50,074 nt of DNA from Nitratidesulfovibrio oxamicus. Its GTDB lineage: Bacteria; Desulfobacterota; Desulfovibrionia; Desulfovibrionales; Desulfovibrionaceae. Below the pieces are notes generated by a model, which was not told the DNA's origin, did not search any database, and worked only from the letters and a program-made list of their open reading frames with translations. Location: positions 1 through 50,074 of the forward strand of contig NZ_VRYY01000221.1 in the NCBI RefSeq assembly GCF_015731765.1. Reading direction: 5' to 3'. The position numbers and the translations under genes were made by a program. This document shows positions 717 to 46,798 of this stretch, piece by piece; the first letter of the stretch is position 1, and every line of letters starts with the position of its first letter.

Positions 717-2376
717 GGCCGCCCCCGCCTGTCGCCTCGTTCGTTGTCGCGGCCATTGTCAGGGGCGTTGTTCTGCCGCTTCGAGGGCCACCATACTGCG
801 TTGCCTGCCCGGCGGGCCTTCCCAACCGGGCCATGGCCTCGGGCGACAGCAGCGCATCCAGCGCGGCCTCGTCCAGCAGGCCGGTGTGGAGCGCCGCCTG
901 GCGCAGGCCGCAATCCCGCTCGCGCATGACGCCGACCAGCCGGGTGGCCCCCTCGTAGCCCAGCACCGGCACCAGCGCGGTCACCGTGCCCCACGAATCG
1001 TCCACATGGCGCGCGCAGGCCGCCGCGTCCGCCCGCATGCCTTCCACGCAGCGGGTGCGGAACATGACGCAGGCGCGGGCAAGGATGGAAATGGTGTCCA
1101 GCAGCGCATCGGCCACCAGCGGCATGAAGGCGTTCAGCTCCAGTTGCCCGGCCTGCGCGGCCATGGTCAGGGCCGCGTCGTTGCCCAGCGCGCGCATGGC
1201 CGCCTGGGCCACCGCCTCGCAGATCACCGGGTTGACCTTGCCGGGCATCAGGCTGGACCCGGCCTGCACGGCGGGCAGCGCCAGTTCGCCCAGTCCCCCG
1301 CGCGGGCCGGAGGCCAGCAGCCGCAGGTCGGCGGAAATCTTCAGCAGGTTCACCGCGTGCGCTTTCAGGATGCCGGAAACCTCCACGAACACGTCGGCGT
1401 TCTGGGTGGCGTCCACCATATTCTCGGCGCGGGCAAGGCCGAGTCCGGTCACCTCGCGCAGCCGCTCCACCACCAGAAAGATGTAGTCGCGCGGGGCGGT
1501 GATGCCCGTGCCCACCGCCGTTCCGCCCAGATTGACCACGCGCAGCCGCTCCTCGCACTTGAAGATGCGCCAGCGGTCACGCGACAGGGCTTCCGCCCAG
1601 GCGGAACATTCCGCCCCCAGGGTAATGGGCACGGCATCCTGAAGCTGGGTGCGGCCCAGCTTGACCACCCCGGCAAAATCGCGTTCGCGGTCCTGAAAGG
1701 CGCGTTGCAGCGCGGCCACGGCCCGCTCCAGTTCGCGCAGGCCACGCATGGCCGCCACGCGCAACGCCGTGGGAAAGACGTCGTTGGTGGACTGGTGCAG
1801 GTTCACGTGGTCCAGCGGGCGCACCAGCCGGTACGCGCCGCGCGTGCCGCCCATGAATTCTTCCGCCCGGTTGGCCAGCACCTCGTTGACGTTCATGTTG
1901 GCCGAGGTGCCCGCGCCCCCCTGCAACGCATCCACCAGCACGTGCGCACCCAGATCGCCGTGCAGCATCTCGTCGCAGGCGGCGCACACGGCGGCGGCCA
2001 CGCGGGGGTCCAGGTAGCCCAGTTCGGCATTGGCGCGGGCACAGGCCTTCTTGACCAGGGCATGCGCCTCCACGAGTCCCGGGTGGAGGCGCCGCCCGGC
2101 AACGGCGAAGTTGTCCAGAGCCCGCAGGGTGTGGATGCCGTGGTAGGCATCCGCGGGAACGGACAGTTCGCCCAGCAGGTCGTGTTCCGCGCGGACGGGT
2201 GCGTTCGCCGCGCGGGTGCACGCCCCGCAGGTATCCGAGGGCAGGTCGGCGATGCCGATCTTGCTATCCGTGCCGGTGATGCCGGCGGTGGATGGAGGGA
2301 TGGCGCCCACGTCCGTTACGGACGGCACGGACGCCATGCCCTGCCCAGCAGAGGCAACGGGTTCAGCAGAAGACAT
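703..2376 (-). CDS. aspA: Aspartate ammonia-lyase embedded in the hydrogenase maturation operon
   Basis: Aspartase of the fumarase/aspartase superfamily, converting L-aspartate to fumarate and ammonia. The 557-residue product carries the superfamily signature GSSLMPGKVNP (residues 373-383), the TSANMNVNE segment (157-165) and HQSTNDVFP (194-202). Family homology begins near residue 63 (EHDLLGELSVPADAYHG). The first ~60 residues are a low-complexity extension and the last ~35 are Gly/Thr-rich, so the protein is longer than usual aspartases (~470). ATG 2376 lies inside the end of hydG (14-base overlap) and the stop overlaps hydE, so the three genes form one tight operon. Ammonia release may supply the bridgehead nitrogen of the H-cluster dithiomethylamine ligand; that role is inference. 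Confidence 0.9.
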   Translation of the reverse strand: MSSAEPVASAGQGMASVPSVTDVGAIPPSTAGITGTDSKIGIADLPSDTCGACTRAANAPVRAEHDLLGELSVPADAYHGIHTLRALDNFAVAGRRLHPGLVEAHALVKKACARANAELGYLDPRVAAAVCAACDEMLHGDLGAHVLVDALQGGAGTSANMNVNEVLANRAEEFMGGTRGAYRLVRPLDHVNLHQSTNDVFPTALRVAAMRGLRELERAVAALQRAFQDRERDFAGVVKLGRTQLQDAVPITLGAECSAWAEALSRDRWRIFKCEERLRVVNLGGTAVGTGITAPRDYIFLVVERLREVTGLGLARAENMVDATQNADVFVEVSGILKAHAVNLLKISADLRLLASGPRGGLGELALPAVQAGSSLMPGKVNPVICEAVAQAAMRALGNDAALTMAAQAGQLELNAFMPLVADALLDTISILARACVMFRTRCVEGMRADAAACARHVDDSWGTVTALVPVLGYEGATRLVGVMRERDCGLRQAALHTGLLDEAALDALLSPEAMARLGRPAGQATQYGGPRSGRTTPLTMAATTNEATGGGGHDAS

Positions 2377-3772
2377 CCCTGCGCCCTTCCTGCACCTTGC
2401 CCAGCATGCGTTCGGCCACGCGGCGGGTGCGGTCGTCCATGCAGCCGAGTTCGGCGGCGATGACTCCCTGGCCTACCTCGCGCTCCATGGGGCTGCCGTA
2501 GTCGATGAGGTATTCGAGGAAGGTGGACAGCGCGTTGGGAGCGCACTTTTCCTTGATCAGGCCGGGCTTGGCGAGATCCATGAAGTCCTGCCCGGTGCGG
2601 CCCAGCCGATAGCAGGCAGTACAGAACGAGGGGATGTAGCCCATCCGCCCGATGTCGGCCACGACCTCTGAAAGGCTGCGATGGTCGCCGAGCTGGAACT
2701 GGCTGGATTCGAACTTTTCGGCTTCCGTGTAGCCGCCGGGGTTGGTGCGGCTGCCCGCCGATATCTGCGATACGCCAAGGGCAAGGGTGGAATGGCGCAC
2801 CTCGGCGTTTTCGCGCGTGGACATGATCAGGCCGGTGTAGGGCACGGCCAGCCGCAGGATGGCCACCAGCTTGCGGAACTCGTCGTCGGTCACGGCCTGC
2901 GGCGGACAGCTGGCCATCTCGGAACCCACGGCGGGCTCAATGCGCGGCACGCTGATGGTGTGGCAGCCCACGCCGAAGCGGTCTTCCAGATGGCGGATGT
3001 GGCTCATCAGCGCCAGGGTGTCGAACCGCCAGTCCGCCAGCCCGTACAGCACGCCCAGGCCCACGTCGTCGATGCCCGCGCGCATGGCCCGGTCCATGGC
3101 AGAGGCGCGCCAGTCGAAGTCGCGCTTCAGGCCGCCCACGTGCACGCGGGTGTAGGTGGGCCGGTGGTAGGTTTCCTGGAACAGCTGGTAGGTGCCGATG
3201 CCGCGTTCTTTCAACCGGGTGAAGTCTTCCACCGTCAGCGGGGCCACGTTGACGTTGACCCGCCGTATCTCGCCGCTTTCCTCGCGCACCGAGTACACGG
3301 CGTCGATGGCCTTCAGCACGTACTCGAAGCCTTCCCCGGGGTACGATTCGCCCGCCACCAGCAGCACCCGCTTGTGGCCCTGGCGCACCAGCACGCGGGT
3401 TTCTGCGGCCACCTCGTCCATGGACAGGGCGCGGCGGTCCAGTTCCTTGTTGGTGGCGCGGAACGCACAGTACAGACATTCGTTGGCGCACAGGTTGGAA
3501 ATGTACAGCGGCGCGAACATGACCAGCCGGTTGCCGTAGATCTCTTCCTTGACCCGGCGGGCTGTGTCGAACAGTTCGTCGACAAGGCCGGGGCTTTTCA
3601 CGTGCATCAGCGCTGCCACATCGTCGCGGTCCAGCCCTTCCAGTTCACGGGCCTTGGCCAGCACCTCGCGGATCTTGCCCGCATCCTCGGCGGCGTTGCG
3701 GGCCAGCGTGTCCGCGATGAGGCTGTCATCAAGCCACGAAACGTCCCTGTCGGCATCCGTTCCCTTGCCCAT
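2363..3772 (-). CDS. hydG: [FeFe] hydrogenase maturase HydG (tyrosine lyase)
   Basis: Radical SAM tyrosine lyase that cleaves tyrosine to p-cresol plus CO and cyanide and builds the Fe(CO)2(CN) synthon for the H-cluster. The 469-residue protein has the radical-SAM CX3CX2C motif CANECLYC (Cys95, Cys99, Cys102). It also has the HydG-specific C-terminal CX2CX22C motif (Cys384, Cys387, Cys410) for the second, five-iron cluster; this separates it from ThiH. ATG 3772 is preceded by a good ribosome binding site (GGAAGGAG). The stop overlaps aspA by 14 bases, and the TM1266-type regulator lies 33 bases upstream. Confidence 0.95.
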   Translation of the reverse strand: MGKGTDADRDVSWLDDSLIADTLARNAAEDAGKIREVLAKARELEGLDRDDVAALMHVKSPGLVDELFDTARRVKEEIYGNRLVMFAPLYISNLCANECLYCAFRATNKELDRRALSMDEVAAETRVLVRQGHKRVLLVAGESYPGEGFEYVLKAIDAVYSVREESGEIRRVNVNVAPLTVEDFTRLKERGIGTYQLFQETYHRPTYTRVHVGGLKRDFDWRASAMDRAMRAGIDDVGLGVLYGLADWRFDTLALMSHIRHLEDRFGVGCHTISVPRIEPAVGSEMASCPPQAVTDDEFRKLVAILRLAVPYTGLIMSTRENAEVRHSTLALGVSQISAGSRTNPGGYTEAEKFESSQFQLGDHRSLSEVVADIGRMGYIPSFCTACYRLGRTGQDFMDLAKPGLIKEKCAPNALSTFLEYLIDYGSPMEREVGQGVIAAELGCMDDRTRRVAERMLGKVQEGRRDVFC

Positions 3773-35010: not shown

Positions 35011-35028
35011 ATGTAAAATATTTCACAA
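35011..35028. promoter_or_regulatory. Candidate Rex operator upstream of sat
   Basis: ATGTAAAA-TA-TTTCACAA matches 14 of the 16 defined positions of the Rex motif TTGTGAAA-N2-TTTCACAA; the right half is perfect. It lies in AT-rich promoter-like DNA 145 bases before the sat ATG, next to TTGACA (35003-35008). Rex is a NADH/NAD+-responsive repressor, and sat is a known Rex target in Desulfovibrio vulgaris. Confidence 0.6.
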
Positions 35029-35172
35029 GAGGGATGCGTGAACGGCGAGATGCACTCCCGAATGCACCGCCGCTCCCGCATGCTTCTCGCACGAGAACAG
35101 CTTTTTTCGTACGCCGCCGCCCCCGGAGCGGCGCGCCATGGCAACAACACATTCATTTGGAGGATGGAAGGT

Positions 35173-36459
35173 ATGTCCAAGCTGGTTCCCCCTCATGGTG
35201 GTAAGGGCCTCGTCTGCTGCCTGCTCGAAGGTGCCGCCCGCGAAGCCGAACTCAAGAAGGCCGCTGGCCTGAAGCAGATCGAAATCAGCTCGCGCACCAA
35301 GGGCGACCTTATCATGATGGGCATCGGCGGCTTCTCTCCGCTGAACGGCTTCATGAAGAAGGCCGACTGGAAGAGCGTCTGCGAAAAGATGACCACCGCC
35401 GACGGCACCTTCTGGCCCGTGCCGGTGACCATGGACATCTCCAAGGAAGACGCCGCCGCCGTCAAGGTGGGCGACGAAGTGGCCCTGGTGCGCAAGGGTG
35501 AAACCTTCGCCACCATGAAGATCGAAGAAATCTACGAAATGACCGAAGCCGACAAGAAGTGGGAATGCGAACTCGTCTTCAAGGGCGAAGGCCCCGACTC
35601 CCAGAAGTTCTGGGAAGTGGCCCTCGAAGACCACCCCGGCGTGAAGATGGTCATGGAACAGAAGGAATTCAACGTCGCCGGTACCGTGAAGGTGCTGTCC
35701 GAAGGTGACTTCCCCACCAAGTTCGCCGGCGTGTACAAGCGCCCCGCCGAACTGCGCGCCGAAATGGAAGAACGCGGCTGGGCCAACGTTGCCGCCCTGC
35801 AGCTGCGCAACCCCATGCACCGCTCGCATGAATTCCTGGCCAAGATCGCCATCGAAGTGTGCGACGGCGTGGTCATCCACTCCCTGGTGGGCGCCCTGAA
35901 ACCCGGCGACATTCCCGCCGAAGTGCGCGTGAAGTGCATCGACACCCTGGTCGAAAAGTACTTCGTGAAGCAGAACGTCATCCAGGCTGGCTACCCCCTG
36001 GACATGCGTTACGCCGGTCCCCGCGAAGGCCTGCTGCACGCCACCTTCCGCCAGAACTACGGCATCAACCGCATGATCATCGGCCGTGACCACGCTGGCG
36101 TGGGCGACTTCTACGGCATGTTCGAAGCCCAGACCATCTTCGACAAGATCCCCTACACCAACGAAGCCTGCCCCGAACCCGGCAAGGCCCTGATCTGCAC
36201 CCCGCTGAAGATCGACTGGACCTTCTACTGCTACAAGTGCGACGGCATGGCCTCCCTGCGTACCTGCCCGCACGGCAAGGAAGACCGCGTCATCCTGTCC
36301 GGCACCAAGCTGCGCAAGGCCCTGTCCGACGGCGCCCCGGTTGCCGACCACTTCGGCCGCGACGAAGTGCTGGAAATCCTGCGCGCCTACTACGAAGGCC
36401 TGACCGAAAAGGTCGAGGTCAAGATGCAGCAGGCCGCTTCCGGCTCCGTGATGAAGTAG
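35173..36459 (+). CDS. sat: Dissimilatory sulfate adenylyltransferase (ATP sulfurylase)
   Basis: Activates sulfate with ATP to adenosine phosphosulfate and pyrophosphate, the first cytoplasmic step of sulfate respiration. The 428-residue product starts [12 protein letters not shown] at ATG 35173, after GGAGG. The nucleotide-binding [11 protein letters not shown] (210-220) and GRDHAGV (304-310) motifs are intact. Cys353, Cys356 and Cys365 (CYKC...C) form the zinc-type cysteine site of prokaryotic homo-oligomeric sulfurylases. It stands alone, between a long leader and a strong terminator. Codon use is strongly biased, as expected of a very highly expressed gene. Confidence 0.97.
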
Positions 36460-38995: not shown

Positions 38996-39024
38996 AAGCC
39001 CGGTCGTGAAACGACCGGGCTTTT
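38996..39024 (+). terminator. Terminator of the VKOR-Trx gene
   Basis: Eleven-base stem AAGCCCGGTCG / CGACCGGGCTT with loop tgaaa, then TTTT, about 90 bases past the stop. Confidence 0.92.
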
Positions 39025-39152
39025 CCCTGGCCGCGCCCCTCCGGCAGGCACCAGCACCACAGTCGACACAGAGCGTCCATACAGGGCGCCGACGCCCTCG
39101 CCCCAAGTTGCCCCCAGTAAATTGATCAACCAATCAGAACCAGCAAGATTTG

Positions 39153-39181
39153 TTGACCTTTCGGGTGTTTCAGACTATGTG
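39153..39181 (+). promoter_or_regulatory. Candidate upstream promoter (P1) of the dsr operon
   Basis: TTGACC, 17-base spacer, TATGTG. The predicted start falls inside the inverted repeat at 39180-39199. Confidence 0.5.
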
Positions 39182-39199
39182 AAAAAAATCATTTTTTCA
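39180..39199. promoter_or_regulatory. Inverted repeat at the dsr start site, possible operator
   Basis: TGAAAAAA-N4-TTTTTTCA, eight-base perfect arms, overlapping the end of the P1 -10 element and the predicted start. The left side contains a Rex-like half site (TGTGAAA), but the right half does not match, so the regulator is uncertain. Confidence 0.45.
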
Positions 39200-39265
39200 G
39201 ACATCGCACTCGCGCGCACCGTACGCGGGGGTTGTCCGGGGAGGCGACGCATCCCCCCTTTTCGC

Positions 39266-39295
39266 TTGGACAAAGCGTAAAAAACGCCGTATAGG
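39266..39295 (+). promoter_or_regulatory. Candidate downstream promoter (P2) of the dsr operon
   Basis: TTGGAC, 18-base spacer, TATAGG; start about 45 bases before ATG 39347. Confidence 0.35.
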
Positions 39296-39346
39296 GGGTT
39301 GCGCCGAAAGAGGCGTGCCCGCTAACCGCAACGGCAAAGAGTTCAC

Positions 39347-39892
39347 ATGACCATCAGGGACCTGCTCACCGAGCACAAGGACGCCATCATCCACAAATGG
39401 ATAGACGCCATGTATGGCACCTATCCGTTTGACACCGTGGGTTTCCTGCGCAGCAGCAGGGACCAGTTCTCCAATCCCGTGGGCCACACCACCGCGGCAT
39501 CCGCCGTTGTCATCTTCGACGCCGTCGCAGGCGACGACGTGGACGAGGCCCGCCTTTCCGAGGCCATAGAGGATGTCATCCGCATCCGGGCCATCCAGAA
39601 TTTCACCCCCGAGCAGGCCGTGGGCGTGCTGTTCGTGCTGAAGACGGTGATCCGCCAGATGCTGCGGTCCGCCATCGTGCGGCACGGGCTGCACGACGGG
39701 CAGCTGGAGGTGGAATCGCGCATCGACACCGTGGCGCTTCTGGCCTTCGGCAAGTATGCCGCATGTCGCGAGCGCCTGCACATGATGAAGGTAGACGACT
39801 TCAAACGTGGATACGCCCAGCTCCTGCGCAGGGCTGAACGTATATTGGACAAGCCGGTAGGGGAACCGGACACGCAGAAACCGATAGCCTAG
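39347..39892 (+). CDS. Stand-alone RsbRD N-terminal-like domain protein, first gene of the dsrMKJOP operon
   Basis: 181-residue soluble protein, no signal peptide or membrane segment. It begins MTIRDLLTEHKDAIIHKWID and continues with DEARLSEAIEDVIRIRAIQN and FTPEQAVGVLFVLKTVIRQM, the all-helical layout of the RsbRD N-terminal domain that, in Bacillus stressosome proteins, precedes a STAS domain. Here the STAS part is absent. It ends 15 bases before dsrM, so it is cotranscribed with the complex. A sensory or assembly role for DsrMKJOP is plausible but untested. No enzyme motifs were seen. Confidence 0.75.
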   Translation: MTIRDLLTEHKDAIIHKWIDAMYGTYPFDTVGFLRSSRDQFSNPVGHTTAASAVVIFDAVAGDDVDEARLSEAIEDVIRIRAIQNFTPEQAVGVLFVLKTVIRQMLRSAIVRHGLHDGQLEVESRIDTVALLAFGKYAACRERLHMMKVDDFKRGYAQLLRRAERILDKPVGEPDTQKPIA

Positions 39893-39907: not shown

Positions 39908-40915
39908 ATGTTCATTTCACTTTTAGCGGTCATTGCGCTGGGTTGCATCGCCTGGCTGGGAGCGGCCTCAGGCTTCCAGTACCTTATCGGGGTGGTGTTG
40001 CCGTATGCCGCGGTGCTCGTGTTCATCGGCGGTTTCGTCTGGCGGATGGTGGACTGGGCCAAATCGCCCGTGCCCTTCCGCATCCCGACCACGGGTGGCC
40101 AGCAGAAGTCGCTGGACTGGATCAAGCCCGCCCGGCTCGACAGCCCCTTCACCACCGCTGGCACCGTGGGGCGCATGCTTCTCGAAGTGCTGCTGTTCCG
40201 GTCGCTTTTCCGGAACACTTCGGTCGAAATCCAGAAAGGCCCCCGCGTGGTCTACTATTCGGCCAAGTGGCTGTGGCTTTTCGCGCTGCTGTTCCACTAC
40301 TGTTTCCTGTTGATCTTCATCCGGCACTTCCGGTTCTTCCTCGAGCCGGTGCCCTTTGCCCTGACGGCCATCGAGTTCGTTGACGGCATCATGCAGATCG
40401 GCGTGCCCCGCATGTTCATGTCCGACGTGCTGGTAGTAGCGGCGCTCGGCTTCCTGCTGGCCCGCCGCCTGTTCAGCGAAAAGGTACGCTACATCTCGCT
40501 GGCCAACGACTACTTCCCGCTGTTCCTGCTGCTGGGCCTCGTGGGCAGCGGCATCTGGATGCGCTACTTCGCCAAGGTGGACATCGCCGCGGTCAAGGTG
40601 CTGACCATGGGCCTCGTGACCATGAACCCCGTGCTGCCGGAAGGCATCGGTGCGGCGTTCTTCATCCACATCTTCCTGCTCTCGTGCCTGCTTGCGTACT
40701 TCCCGTTCAGCAAGCTGATGCACATGGGCGGCGTCTTCCTCAGCCCCACGCGCAACCTGCCCAACAACACGCGCGCGGTGCGCCACGTGAACCCCTGGAA
40801 TCCGCCCAAGAAGTACCGCACCTACGCGGAATACGAAGACGAGTTCCGGGAACTGATGGAAGAAGCGGGGCTGCCTGTCGACAAAACCTCTGAAGAAGCC
40901 GCTGCCGCCGAGTAA
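39908..40915 (+). CDS. dsrM: DsrM, membrane cytochrome b subunit
   Basis: 335-residue subunit of the DsrMKJOP complex, a NarI-like cytochrome b that exchanges electrons with menaquinone. Hydrophobic segments lie at about 3-20, 25-45, 120-142, 170-188, 203-220 and 247-268. Candidate heme ligands are His130, His140, His254 and His272. The soluble C terminus is charged. Ribosome binding site GAGG before ATG; dsrK starts 9 bases after the stop. Confidence 0.95.
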   Translation: MFISLLAVIALGCIAWLGAASGFQYLIGVVLPYAAVLVFIGGFVWRMVDWAKSPVPFRIPTTGGQQKSLDWIKPARLDSPFTTAGTVGRMLLEVLLFRSLFRNTSVEIQKGPRVVYYSAKWLWLFALLFHYCFLLIFIRHFRFFLEPVPFALTAIEFVDGIMQIGVPRMFMSDVLVVAALGFLLARRLFSEKVRYISLANDYFPLFLLLGLVGSGIWMRYFAKVDIAAVKVLTMGLVTMNPVLPEGIGAAFFIHIFLLSCLLAYFPFSKLMHMGGVFLSPTRNLPNNTRAVRHVNPWNPPKKYRTYAEYEDEFRELMEEAGLPVDKTSEEAAAAE

Positions 40916-40924
40916 GGAGCCGAC

Positions 40925-42535
40925 ATGTCCAAACTGCCAACTCCCGACAAGCTGATCGCGACCATCCCCGCCTTCCCCATGGAAGGGTGGATGGACACCA
41001 AGCCGGACTTCAAGCCCGGCACGTGGTGCTATCCGGCCAAGGTCGACAACATGAAGGCCCTCGGCATGCCGAACCCGCACGAGTGGTCGGCCGACCAGGA
41101 AGACTGGAACCTGCCCGAGAACTGGGAAGAGATCATCTACGAAGGCCTCAAGGCGCGTCTGGCCAAGCACCGCTCGCTCAAGGTGTTCATGGACATCTGC
41201 GTGCGCTGCGGCGCCTGCGCCGACAAGTGTCACTTCTTCATCGGCACGGGCGACCCCAAGAACATGCCCGTGCTGCGCGCCGAACTGCTGCGCTCGGTCT
41301 ACCGCCGCGACTTCACCACGGCGGGCAAGCTGCTGGGCAAGCTGGCGGGCGCCCGCAAGCTGGACAAGGATGTCATCAAGGAGTGGTTCTACTACTTCTA
41401 TCAGTGCACCGAATGCCGCCGCTGCTCGCTGTTCTGCCCCTACGGCATCGACACCGCCGAAATCACCGCCATCGCGCGTGAGCTGCTGCACGAGTTGGGC
41501 CTTGGCATCCACTGGATCATGGAGCCGGTGTTCAACTGCAACCGCACCGGCAACCACCTGGGCATCCAGCCGCACGCCTTCAAGGAAATCGTCGAGTTCC
41601 TCTGCGAGGACATCGAGACGGTGACCGGCATCAAGATCAACCCGCCCTTCAACGAAAAGGGCCACGAGATCGTGTTCATCACGCCCTCTGGTGACGTGTT
41701 CGCCGACCCCGGCATCTACACGTTCATGGGTTACCTGATGCTGTTCCATGAAATCGGGCTGGACTACACCCTGTCCACCTACGCTTCCGAAGGCGGCAAC
41801 TTCGGCTCGTTCACCACCTTCGACATGGCGAAGAAGCTGAACGCCAAGATGTACGCCGAAGCAGAGCGCCTTGGCTCCAAGTGGATCCTGGGCGGCGAAT
41901 GCGGCCACATGTGGCGCGTGGTGCACCAGTACATGGACACCTTCAACGGCCCCACCCCGCCCAAGATGGAAGTGCCGAGGTCGCCCATCACCGGCACGGT
42001 GTTCAAGAACGCGGCGTCCACCAAGATGGTGCACATCGCCGAGTTCACGGCCGACCTCATCAAGCACAACAAGCTGCGCCTCGACCCCAGCCGCAACGAC
42101 CACCTGACCGTGACCTTCCACGACTCGTGCAACCCGGCGCGCGGCATGGGCCTGCTTGAAGAACCCCGCTACGTGCTCAAGAACGTGTGCAACAACTACG
42201 TTGACATGCCCGAGAACACCATCCGCGAGCAGACCTTCTGCTGCGGCGGCGGCTCCGGCCTGAACACCGACGAAATCATGGAAATCCGCATGCGCGGCGG
42301 CCTGCCCCGCGGCAATGCCCTGCGGTACGTGCAGCAGAAGCACGGCGTGAACACCATGGCCTGCATCTGCGCCATCGACCGGGCCACCCTGCCCCCGCTG
42401 GCCAACTACTGGGCCCCCGGCGTCACGGTCTACGGTACCCACGAGCTGGTGGCCAACGCCCTCGTGATGCGCGGCGAACAGAAGCGCACCATGGACCTGC
42501 GGCAGGAAGAACTGCCCGGTATGGAGGATGAATAA
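40925..42535 (+). CDS. dsrK: DsrK, HdrD-like iron-sulfur subunit
   Basis: 536-residue cytoplasmic subunit related to heterodisulfide reductase HdrD, the proposed catalytic site acting on the DsrC trisulfide. Two 4Fe-4S motifs are visible: CVRCGACADKC (Cys92, 95, 98, 102) and CTECRRCSLFC (Cys161, 164, 167, 171). The C-terminal CCG-type cysteines are GGECGHMW, HDSCNPARG and CCGGGSG, the binding set for the special HdrD-type cluster. AAGGAG precedes the start. The stop is 2 bases before the dsrJ ATG. Confidence 0.96.
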   Translation: MSKLPTPDKLIATIPAFPMEGWMDTKPDFKPGTWCYPAKVDNMKALGMPNPHEWSADQEDWNLPENWEEIIYEGLKARLAKHRSLKVFMDICVRCGACADKCHFFIGTGDPKNMPVLRAELLRSVYRRDFTTAGKLLGKLAGARKLDKDVIKEWFYYFYQCTECRRCSLFCPYGIDTAEITAIARELLHELGLGIHWIMEPVFNCNRTGNHLGIQPHAFKEIVEFLCEDIETVTGIKINPPFNEKGHEIVFITPSGDVFADPGIYTFMGYLMLFHEIGLDYTLSTYASEGGNFGSFTTFDMAKKLNAKMYAEAERLGSKWILGGECGHMWRVVHQYMDTFNGPTPPKMEVPRSPITGTVFKNAASTKMVHIAEFTADLIKHNKLRLDPSRNDHLTVTFHDSCNPARGMGLLEEPRYVLKNVCNNYVDMPENTIREQTFCCGGGSGLNTDEIMEIRMRGGLPRGNALRYVQQKHGVNTMACICAIDRATLPPLANYWAPGVTVYGTHELVANALVMRGEQKRTMDLRQEELPGMEDE

Positions 42536-42537
42536 CC

Positions 42538-42918
42538 ATGTATAACGGCAAATACATCATCCCCGGCATCGTGATCTTCGTCGGGCTGTTCACCTTTCCC
42601 TTCTGGTCCAACCTGCTGACGCCCAAGTACGAGCGTCCGCAGCTGGCCATGCCCGCAGACCAGAAGGAATGCATCGAACCGGCCGAATACATGCGCGCCG
42701 AGCACATGCACATTCTCGACGTGTGGCGCGACCAGGCCCTGCGCGAAGGCAAGCGCGCCTATGTCGCCTCCAACGGCAAGGTCTGGGACATCAGCCTGCA
42801 GAACACCTGCATGAAGTGTCACGCCAACAAGGCCGATTTCTGCGACAAGTGCCACAACTCCAACAGCGTGAGCCCCTACTGCTGGGATTGCCATGTGGCG
42901 CCGAGGGGGAACCAGTAA
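42538..42918 (+). CDS. dsrJ: DsrJ, periplasmic triheme cytochrome c
   Basis: 126-residue triheme cytochrome c anchored by an N-terminal hydrophobic segment (residues ~7-23). Three CXXCH heme sites: CMKCH (91-95), CDKCH (102-106), CWDCH (115-119). Cys45 (QKECIEP) is at the place of the cysteine that gives DsrJ its unusual His/Cys-ligated heme. The stop overlaps the dsrO start as TAATG. Confidence 0.96.
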   Translation: MYNGKYIIPGIVIFVGLFTFPFWSNLLTPKYERPQLAMPADQKECIEPAEYMRAEHMHILDVWRDQALREGKRAYVASNGKVWDISLQNTCMKCHANKADFCDKCHNSNSVSPYCWDCHVAPRGNQ

Positions 42919-43697
42919 TGAGCACCACCAGAAGACAATTCCTGAAGATCGCCGGGCTTGCCGCCTTCGGCCTTGGCACCTCGAGCGCGCTCGACGCTGC
43001 CGAAGCCGTCGCCAAGGACATGCCGGGCGCCAAGTACGATGTGGGCGGCAAGCACCTTGCCGCCAAGCGTTGGGCCATGGTCATCGACACCCGCAAGCTG
43101 GAATCGCGCGAGGACTACGATCGCATCATCCACGCCTGCCATTCCGTCCACAACGTCCCCTCGATTCCCACCAAGCAGGAAATCAAGTGGATCTGGACCG
43201 ACAAGTACGACCGGGTGTTCACCGACGACATGAGCCAGCACCTGTCCCCCGCCGTGCGCGAAAAGGACTACCTGCTGCTTTGCAACCACTGCGAAAACCC
43301 GCCCTGCGTGCGCGTGTGCCCCACCAAGGCCACCTTCAAGCGCGCCGACGGCATCGTGGTGATGGACTACCACCGCTGCATCGGCTGCCGCTTCTGCATG
43401 GCCGGGTGTCCTTACGGCGCGCGCAGCTTCAACTTCGGCGATCCGCGCCCCTACCTGAAGGACGTGAACCCCGCCTTCCCCACCCGCATGCGCGGCGTGG
43501 TGGAAAAATGCACCTTCTGCTCCGAACGGCTTGAGGTGGGTCTGCTGCCCGCCTGCGTCGAAGCTTCGAACGGGGCCATCCTGTTCGGCGACCTCGACGA
43601 CCCGAATTCGCCGGTTCGCAAGGCCCTTGCCGAGAACTTCAGCATTCGCCGCAAGCCCTCCATCGGGACCCAGCCCGGCGTCTACTACATCGTGTAG
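42918..43697 (+). CDS. dsrO: DsrO, periplasmic iron-sulfur protein
   Basis: 259-residue ferredoxin-like subunit with a Tat signal (TTRRQFLKIAG), exported folded. Cysteine groups: CNHCENPPCVRVC (122-134), CIGCRFCMAGC (154-164), and Cys198/Cys201/Cys213, giving several 4Fe-4S clusters. It carries electrons between DsrJ and the membrane subunit DsrP. DsrP starts 11 bases later. Confidence 0.96.
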   Translation: MSTTRRQFLKIAGLAAFGLGTSSALDAAEAVAKDMPGAKYDVGGKHLAAKRWAMVIDTRKLESREDYDRIIHACHSVHNVPSIPTKQEIKWIWTDKYDRVFTDDMSQHLSPAVREKDYLLLCNHCENPPCVRVCPTKATFKRADGIVVMDYHRCIGCRFCMAGCPYGARSFNFGDPRPYLKDVNPAFPTRMRGVVEKCTFCSERLEVGLLPACVEASNGAILFGDLDDPNSPVRKALAENFSIRRKPSIGTQPGVYYIV

Positions 43698-43708: not shown

Positions 43709-44872
43709 ATGATCGAGAAGGTTCTGAAAGGCTCCCCGGCGTTCTACATCTGGCTGCTGTTCCTCGGCAGCATCGCGGGCCTGGGCGTCTTCGCGTACAT
43801 CTTCCAGCTCCAGTACGGGCTGACCATCACCGGCATGAGCCGCGACGTTTCGTGGGGGCTGTACATCTCGCAGTTCACCTACTTCGTCGGCGTGGCGGCC
43901 TCGGCGGTGATGCTGGTGTTGCCCGCCTACTTCCATCACTACAAGAAGTTCAAGAAGATGATCATCCTCGGCGAGTTCATGGCGATTTCCGCCGTGCTGA
44001 TGTGCATGCTCTTCATCGTCACCGACATGGGGCAGCCGCAGCGCATGCTGAACGTCATCCTGCACCCCACGCCGAACTCCATCATGTTCTACGACATGAT
44101 GGTGCTGATGGGGTACCTGTTCATCAACGCACTGGTCGGCTGGGTTACCCTTGAAGCCGAGCGCCACGATGTTGACCCGCCCAAGTGGATCAAGTTCTTC
44201 ATCTATCTGTCGGTGGTGTGGGCGTTCTCCATCCACACCGTCACCGCCTTCCTGTACGCGGGCCTGCCCGGTCGCCACTACTGGCTGACGGCCATCATGG
44301 CTGCCCGCTTCCTGTCCTCGGCCTTTGCCTCCGGTCCGGCCATCCTGCTGTTGCTGGTCATGGCGCTGCGCCGCCTGACCGGGTTCGATCCGGGCCGCGA
44401 AGCCATCCAGACCCTGACCAAGATCATCACCTACGCCATGGCCATCAACGTGTTCTTCTTCCTGCTGGAAGTGTTCACGGCCTTCTACAGCGGCATGCCG
44501 GGCCACCAGCACCCGCTCACCTTCCTGTTCGTGGGCCACGATGGCCACGCCTCGTGGGTGGTGGGCTGGATGTGGACGGCGGCCGTGCTGGCCATCCTGT
44601 CGCTGTGCCTGCTCATCCCCCCGCAGTTCCGCGACAACGAGCGCGTGCTGCCCTGGGCGCTGGGCATCCTGGTCATCGCCAGCTGGATCGACAAGGGCCT
44701 GGGCCTCTTGATCGGCGGCTTTACCCCCAACCCCTTCGAGACGGTGACCGAGTACGCGCCCACCTTCCCGGAAATTCTCGTCACCGTGGGCGTTTACGCC
44801 ATCGGCCTGATGGTGCTTTCCGTGCTGTGGAAGATCGCCCTCGACGTGAAGAAGGAAGCGGGCACCTTCTAG
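43709..44872 (+). CDS. dsrP: DsrP, NrfD-family membrane subunit
   Basis: 387-residue integral membrane protein of the NrfD/PsrC family with about ten hydrophobic helices; it contacts the quinone pool. Start MIEKVLKGSPAFYIWLLFLG, with AGGAGG upstream. Recognisable NrfD-like parts are VSWGLYISQFTYFVGVAASA and RHYWLTAIMAARFLSSAFAS. Last gene of the operon, closed by a GC-rich hairpin. Confidence 0.96.
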   Translation: MIEKVLKGSPAFYIWLLFLGSIAGLGVFAYIFQLQYGLTITGMSRDVSWGLYISQFTYFVGVAASAVMLVLPAYFHHYKKFKKMIILGEFMAISAVLMCMLFIVTDMGQPQRMLNVILHPTPNSIMFYDMMVLMGYLFINALVGWVTLEAERHDVDPPKWIKFFIYLSVVWAFSIHTVTAFLYAGLPGRHYWLTAIMAARFLSSAFASGPAILLLLVMALRRLTGFDPGREAIQTLTKIITYAMAINVFFFLLEVFTAFYSGMPGHQHPLTFLFVGHDGHASWVVGWMWTAAVLAILSLCLLIPPQFRDNERVLPWALGILVIASWIDKGLGLLIGGFTPNPFETVTEYAPTFPEILVTVGVYAIGLMVLSVLWKIALDVKKEAGTF

Positions 44873-45511: not shown

Positions 45512-46798
45512 CTAGAACTTGTAGCCCAGCGAAAGGCCGAACACGTGGGTACGGCCATCGCGCGAGGAACCTTCGTAAATCCCGCCGCCCTGGTTGTCGT
45601 ATTCCGCGTCGGACGCCACTATGTAGGTATAGGACAGGTCCACGGTGTAGCTGTCCCAGTGGAAGCCGGTACCCACGCTGTACAGCTGGCGGTCATCGGT
45701 GGGAATCAGGTAGTCGATCTTGCCGCTGCGGGCAGGCGATTCGTCGTAGACGTAGCCCGCGCGCAGATCCATCCACGGAGTGGCGGCGTACTCGACGCCG
45801 ATGCTATAGCGCCAGGCATCACGCCAGTCCTTCTCCTGGTTTACCAGCGCCCCCTGGCCGCCATAAAAGGGCGGCTCGTGGTAGATGGCCAGGTTGTCGT
45901 ACAGGGACCAGCGGGTCAGCAGCGCCCCCACTTCAATGCTCAGTTCGGGAATGGGGGTGTAGGACACGCCGAAGGCCACCATGTCGGGCAGGGTCACCGA
46001 ACCCTTCACGTCGCAGTCCTGATAGACACCAACCACCTGCGGAATGCTGGTAAGCGAAGACCCGATGGTGAAGTTGTTGTCGCCACGGGCTTCCTGCTCG
46101 ATCTGGCTCTTGTAGCTCACGCCCGCAGCCCACTGGTCGTTGAACTGGTAGTGCAGGCCGGCGGTAAGGCCCCAGCCGTAGCTGTCGGCCTCAAGGTTCG
46201 AATCCACCTCGGCGGCGGCGGGCCTCAGGGGATTGTTGCCGCCGGAGGGATCACTCTTCTTGTCCATGTTCAGCTTCAGGGTCATGAACTCGACCCCCAC
46301 GGCGGCGGAAAGCTTGTCCGTCAGCTTGAACGCGATGTTGGGATTGTACGAGATGGTCTGGATTTCGGCATTGTAGATGTTGTAGCGGCCAGCCCAGCGA
46401 TCATCATCGTATTCGGTGCCCAGGCCGAAGCGGGTGTAGATGCCCATGCCCAGCCACAGGTTGTCCTTGAGTTGGGTGGTCAGGTAGCCGTGCGGGGGCG
46501 TCCACACGTTGTCGGCACCTTCACCGGTGTAGGTCTGGCCGCCGGACTTCACGTCCACCTTGGCGCTGGGGATGATGGCGCTCACGCCAGCCATGACCTG
46601 GGTGCCTTCCAGTTGGGTCATCAGGGCCGGGTTGTAGGCCACGGCAGAGGCATCGGGCTTGCGGGCCACCATGGCGCCGGCCAGCGCGTTGCCGCGCGCG
46701 CCCCATTCGTACAGGGCAAAGCCCTCGGCCTGCGCGGTGCCCGCCATGGCGGTGCACACCAGCAGGCACGACATAGCCAACGATTTCAGTCGCTTCAT
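45512..46798 (-). CDS. FadL/OmpP1-family outer-membrane transporter
   Basis: 428-residue outer-membrane beta-barrel of the FadL/TodX (OmpP1) family, which moves hydrophobic molecules such as fatty acids across the outer membrane. Sec signal MKRLKSLAMSCLLVCTAMAG with cleavage after AQA near residue 24; the mature N terminus EGFALYEWGARGNALAGAMV is the family's hatch start, with SAVAYNPALMTQLEG following. The barrel ends in a C-terminal aromatic (GLSLGYKF), as expected for BAM insertion. Monocistronic, with its own terminator. Substrate cannot be told from sequence. Confidence 0.9.
   Translation of the reverse strand: MKRLKSLAMSCLLVCTAMAGTAQAEGFALYEWGARGNALAGAMVARKPDASAVAYNPALMTQLEGTQVMAGVSAIIPSAKVDVKSGGQTYTGEGADNVWTPPHGYLTTQLKDNLWLGMGIYTRFGLGTEYDDDRWAGRYNIYNAEIQTISYNPNIAFKLTDKLSAAVGVEFMTLKLNMDKKSDPSGGNNPLRPAAAEVDSNLEADSYGWGLTAGLHYQFNDQWAAGVSYKSQIEQEARGDNNFTIGSSLTSIPQVVGVYQDCDVKGSVTLPDMVAFGVSYTPIPELSIEVGALLTRWSLYDNLAIYHEPPFYGGQGALVNQEKDWRDAWRYSIGVEYAATPWMDLRAGYVYDESPARSGKIDYLIPTDDRQLYSVGTGFHWDSYTVDLSYTYIVASDAEYDNQGGGIYEGSSRDGRTHVFGLSLGYKF

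Follow-up and report, generated by a model that had tools for sequence, protein, structure and literature searches.

The first gene of the operon that encodes the membrane complex DsrMKJOP is dsrT, of which almost all sampled genomes with a canonical complex carry a single copy. That it leads the operon in nearly every sampled carrier of the complex argues for a dedicated partner, and we propose that DsrT is a cytoplasmic helper of DsrMKJOP, acting either in assembly or in the control of activity; for the two taken jointly we give a probability of about 0.6. The copy analysed here (39347..39892, forward strand) lies in a stretch of 50,074 nucleotides from Nitratidesulfovibrio oxamicus, hereafter the window. 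As judged from its sequence, the product is DsrT, a named gene product and not a new one. An earlier note on this DNA had suggested that it may be an undescribed regulator or accessory subunit of the complex, and "undescribed" fails, since dsrT and dsrTMKJOP are already in the literature. The identification rests on position and homology, not on a comparison of the accessions of the named genes; homologues were found at the place of dsrT in Thermodesulfovibrio, Moorella and Bacteroidota/Chlorobi, for which papers name the gene. The tag DVU1291 of D. vulgaris presumably denotes the same gene. What is known is the gene and its name; what is added here is the strictness of its tie to DsrMKJOP.

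In a table of PMC5812927, the dsrT of Thermodesulfovibrio yellowstonii immediately precedes dsrM, and most Chlorobiaceae have the arrangement dsrNCABLEFHTMKJOP (PMC8232776). Where PMC13047784 touches on the operon, it gives a single unit dsrTMKJOP for most sulphate reducers. PMC10504309, in its passages on dsrT, states that the gene adjoins dsrM and that bacterial reducers have it together with DsrMKJOP; on grounds of homology, it adds that the gene "may regulate dsrMKJOP expression". The function of DsrT is given as unknown in PMC11406059, according to which several phyla have dsrT and Pseudomonadota have none.

Among 148 sampled genomes of the window's phylum there are 76 DsrM loci, partial ones at contig ends counted, and 69 of these have an RsbRD_N gene before dsrM or dsrK on the same strand, with 252-603 bp between the end of the RsbRD_N profile and the start of the DsrM profile. 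DsrM lies at the end of a contig in three of the seven exceptions (G426, G411 and G463), and two (G404 and G368) have a divergent dsrT copy directly before dsrM. True absence is limited to G374 and G409, which belong to one family (f33) and have the full complex. In these two genomes a DsrK-like iron-sulfur protein replaces dsrT directly before dsrM (L092, 7268-8956, and L094, 7761-9371, both on the reverse strand); that of G374 (L092) scores 346 bits, where the DsrK cut-off is 400. At yet another locus, the gene directly before dsrT-dsrM (L107, 8023-9354, reverse strand) encodes a TmcB-like protein whose 772.6 bits exceed the TmcB cut-off.

That the gene is conserved with dsrMKJOP, on which the earlier note had made a link to the complex depend, is borne out by these 69 of 76 loci and equally across phyla. 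For the latter, the 80 loci with the strongest similarity to a thermodesulfobacterial DsrK were taken, which is no random draw; they cover about ten phyla, with Desulfobacterota, Nitrospirota, Bacillota, Acidobacteria and others, and also include Zixibacteria, Kapaibacterium, Riflebacteria, Sumerlaeia and an actinomycete MAG. In 78 of the 80, dsrT immediately precedes dsrM or dsrK, and the remaining two contigs start at dsrM. The gap to the next gene has a median of about 20 bp, and all 13 genomes of diverse phyla that were counted have a single copy. Moorella mulderi has T-K-J-O-P-M; dsrM has moved to the end of the operon and dsrT still stands before dsrK.

The association is with the canonical DsrK. 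In the phylum of Moorella, each of the 20 genomes with a DsrK above 700 bits has exactly one DsrT, encoded on the strand of dsrK at a distance of up to about 1.25 kb and, as read from the coordinates, directly before it in 15 of the 20. DsrT was found in none of 14 genomes with DsrK-like paralogues only (about 263-438 bits), which were chosen for this property; the 20 and the 14 genomes are related and do not represent 34 independent events. Those Desulfovibrionia genomes with no RsbRD_N that were rechecked have either no DsrK, or distant paralogues only, or a locus cut by a contig end. The one clear exception is G183, which has K-J-O-P but, over about 7 kb upstream, no M and no T (L233, G183:C158:12000-28000); either dsrM and dsrT were lost or moved together, or the assembly is broken at this point.

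Apparently, DsrT follows the complex and not the direction of the pathway, since it is also found in clusters of the oxidative type, with dsrFH, in Bacteroidota. In a sample from the phylum of Kapaibacterium, DsrM is present in 48 of 296 genomes, and coordinates place a match to the DsrT profile a few tens of bases before dsrM in all 48. In the five loci that were read, genes similar to dsrF and dsrH lie upstream of dsrT. At one of these loci, the two were identified as DsrE/DsrF and DsrH by Pfam, which also assigned RsbRD_N (4.7e-7) to the gene that separates them from dsrM. These genomes are probably those of green sulfur bacteria. Their DsrT (L214-L223) is shorter, strongly diverged and barely reached by Pfam; the FxNPxG loop is gone, and the AVQxxPPS motif and the C-terminal helix are kept. 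In contrast, the copy in the window is of the usual, long form, NP loop included, and by position, domain and operon it belongs to the DsrT known from green sulfur bacteria and sulfate reducers. A restriction of dsrT to sulfate reducers is thereby ruled out. Of the contrast between sulfate reducers and sulfur oxidisers that the earlier note had proposed to check, the absence from Pseudomonadota (PMC11406059) stands, but the presence of dsrT before dsrM in dsrFH-bearing Bacteroidota runs against it.

The open reading frame of dsrT starts with ATG, encodes 181 amino acids and ends 15 nt before the start of dsrM at 39908, exactly as first read from the sequence. It is followed on the forward strand by dsrM (39908..40915; NF038037, 533.6 bits), dsrK (40925..42535; NF045796, 747.7 bits), dsrJ (42538..42918; NF038038, 182.6 bits), dsrO (42918..43697; NF045797, 320.9 bits) and dsrP (43709..44872; NF045798, 481.7 bits), all five above the NCBIfam equivalog cut-offs. 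A FadL/TodX-type outer membrane protein (45512-46798, reverse strand; Toluene_X, 4.4e-73) converges on the end of the operon. The suggestion that dsrT is the promoter-proximal gene agrees with the region in front of it: an inverted repeat rich in GC, with a T-rich stretch after it (38996..39022, forward strand), by its shape a likely terminator of the upstream gene and absent from the list of the automatic terminator scan, would separate dsrT from that gene, and a promoter/leader block of about 220 bp (39122..39346, forward strand) is near-invariant in five further genomes of this genus. Therefore, transcription of the dsr unit probably begins with dsrT. Within the block, a candidate promoter was read by eye on the forward strand (-35 TTGACC at 39153-39158, -10 TATGTG at 39176-39181, spacing 17), for which the automatic scan made no call, and the inverted repeat TGAAAAAA-atca-TTTTTTCA (39180..39199), which overlaps the candidate -10, is a possible operator. 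About 3 kb upstream of dsrT, a Rex-like palindrome, ATGTAAAATATTTCACAA (35011-35028 of the window), immediately precedes an apparent ATP sulfurylase gene (sat; 35038-36459, forward strand). The palindrome has two mismatches to the Rex consensus TTGTGAAATATTTCACAA, and none would be expected by chance.

As had been assumed at the outset, DsrT consists for the most part of a lone RsbRD_N domain (PF14361; 39353..39667, forward strand, residues 3-107), which contains the FxNPxG and RAxQxFxPSxA motifs. The Pfam match covers the full 104-position profile (E 1.3e-18, 68 bits, cut-off 24.3), and it is far above chance given that the domain occupies the same place in the operon in phylum after phylum. 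Pfam gave no STAS, other output or any second domain in DsrT, NCBIfam lacks a model for DsrT, and dsrT is the only PF14361 match in the 4.0-Mb genome of the window. Past the Pfam domain a C-terminal helix of 52 residues (39692..39847, forward strand, residues 116-167) is conserved, with R141, E142 and E/D151. It is located where true RsbRD proteins run into STAS, and we infer that it is a partner-binding surface.

The published alternative is that DsrT regulates transcription of dsrMKJOP. The promoter-proximal position of the gene, the conserved operator-like repeat in front of it and the typical occurrence of RsbRD_N in signalling proteins would fit such a role, and the idea is repeated in the literature, where, in the passages concerned, homology to a signalling domain is the argument. 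However, DsrT has no DNA-binding domain in its sequence (Pfam, NCBIfam) or in its predicted structure; the homologous sensor needs STAS and RsbT to act, and the window's genome is without RsbS. Moreover, dsrT tracks the complex across phyla that differ in their sets of sigma factors and regulators. We consider a role in transcription unlikely.

The AlphaFold model of DsrT, computed with 72 aligned homologues, has a pLDDT of 94.6 and a pTM of 0.84 and shows six helices in addition to the 52-residue C-terminal helix. The solved folds closest to it by VIA-align are sensor globins with or without haem, namely pXO2-61 (Z 11.6), the DosC globin (11.3), the N-domain of RsbR (10.5) and 3zta, a bacterial stressosome sensor domain (10.1), with phycobiliproteins just below. 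For helical folds a VIA-align Z of about 13 is needed if it is to stand alone, and the range of DsrT, 9-11.6, is below this; the putative globin/RsbR-N-like fold is called from Pfam homology together with these scores. Foldseek gave no match to the model at E <= 0.001. Searches for sequence relatives in the PDB found none by phmmer and, with a profile, only TFIIA at E ~0.1, which was taken as chance; solved relatives of DsrK were absent at E 1e-20 from the PDB copy searched. The stand-alone non-haem globin-fold sensors pXO1-118 and pXO2-61 also have no output domain and are closest in predicted fold (Z 10.7-11.6), but with about 10% identity and no common context the likeness is one of fold only. 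Invariant or nearly invariant in DsrT are W18, Y26, F41, N43, P44, G46, R81, A82, Q84, P88, A91, K99, F134, R141, E142 and E/D151. No column among the 72 aligned sequences has His in 20% or more, which makes haem binding unlikely, and a haem sensor was dropped for want of a conserved proximal histidine. An iron-sulfur protein or one with a redox-active cysteine was dropped likewise: C140 is 82% conserved and is not a universal ligand, since it is replaced by Tyr in thermophile copies and by His or Asn in Bacteroidota copies.

A constitutive sixth subunit, lost from earlier preparations, would also be encoded in the same operon with one copy per complex, and it would be expected to show evolutionary distances like those of the subunits. 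The distances of DsrT indeed correlate with those of DsrM and DsrK (0.68-0.69; 0.66 for DsrJ), although shared operon and ancestry alone would yield much of this correlation and of the co-distribution. The co-distribution favours a helper of a protein complex. Yet DsrT diverges faster than the subunits, with a mean distance of 1.32 versus 0.38-0.84. Furthermore, the complex occurs without DsrT in G374 and G409 and in Pseudomonadota (PMC11406059), and DsrT is therefore not mechanically indispensable for every DsrMKJOP. A permanent subunit thus appears rather improbable to us.

The target could instead be DsrC or another cytoplasmic partner of the pathway and not the membrane complex. DsrT occurs whichever way the pathway runs, and DsrK has DsrC as a shared substrate; dsrT, however, tracks the canonical DsrK and is placed before dsrM or dsrK, and we give this possibility little credence. 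A stressosome-like partner switch with unlinked STAS and kinase proteins is very improbable: RsbRD_N is also found in true RsbRD-STAS sensors with RsbS, but RsbS gave no match in the window's genome (93.5% complete) and six other Desulfovibrionia genomes, a second RsbRD_N gene has RsbS beside it in the three positive controls (G089, G320 and G058), and the NPxG loop of DsrT is missing from the STAS-type RsbRD of G089 (L002). This locus (1411-3133, forward strand) encodes a protein with RsbRD_N and STAS; next come a STAS protein and an open reading frame similar to RsbT. The same Desulfovibrionaceae genome has in addition a separate single-domain RsbRD_N gene of the size of dsrT. A stressosome component was dropped for the window's genome, since DsrT lacks STAS and the genome lacks RsbS. 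What DsrT has in common with RsbRD/RsbR sensors is the RsbRD_N domain and the start of the STAS-leading helix; it differs in the missing STAS, the extra NPxG loop, the altered helix end and the absence of RsbS from the genome.

Returning to DsrT as a dedicated helper, it would work post-translationally and would most likely bind the cytoplasmic DsrK-DsrM module. Contact may be made via the C-terminal helix, which is conserved and takes the place at which the signal of a stressosome sensor passes to STAS, and further via the FxNPxG and RAxQxFxPSxA loops. Five subunits have been described for purified DsrMKJOP, hence binding of DsrT would be transient or weak. DsrT could be a system-specific assembly factor in the manner of NarJ for nitrate reductase, produced shortly ahead of its clients, or it could control the flow of electrons between menaquinol and the DsrC trisulfide. 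An assembly factor is slightly preferred, because dsrT is made first, because the complex is found without it in two genomes of one Desulfobacterota family and reportedly in Pseudomonadota, and because purified complexes have been described with five subunits. NarJ-type chaperones are all-helical, operon-encoded and dedicated to one respiratory complex each. DsrT would resemble them in all three respects, and DsrM of the window also matches the NarI family (PF02665, Pfam); they are nevertheless another family, and the likeness is an analogy of working, not membership. It is tempting to speculate, at somewhat less than even odds, that a sensor domain of the stressosome type lost its output and became a helper of DsrMKJOP, in which the helix that once led to STAS would bind DsrK/DsrM and gate either the assembly of the complex or its electron flow to DsrC, in green sulfur bacteria as in sulfate reducers.

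Sulfate respiration depends on DsrMKJOP, whose working and control are still debated. DsrT accompanies this complex almost everywhere outside Pseudomonadota. With one copy per complex, absence where only paralogues are present, and a sensor fold that is apparently free of haem, the notion that DsrT "may regulate expression" is replaced by the testable claim that it is a dedicated helper.
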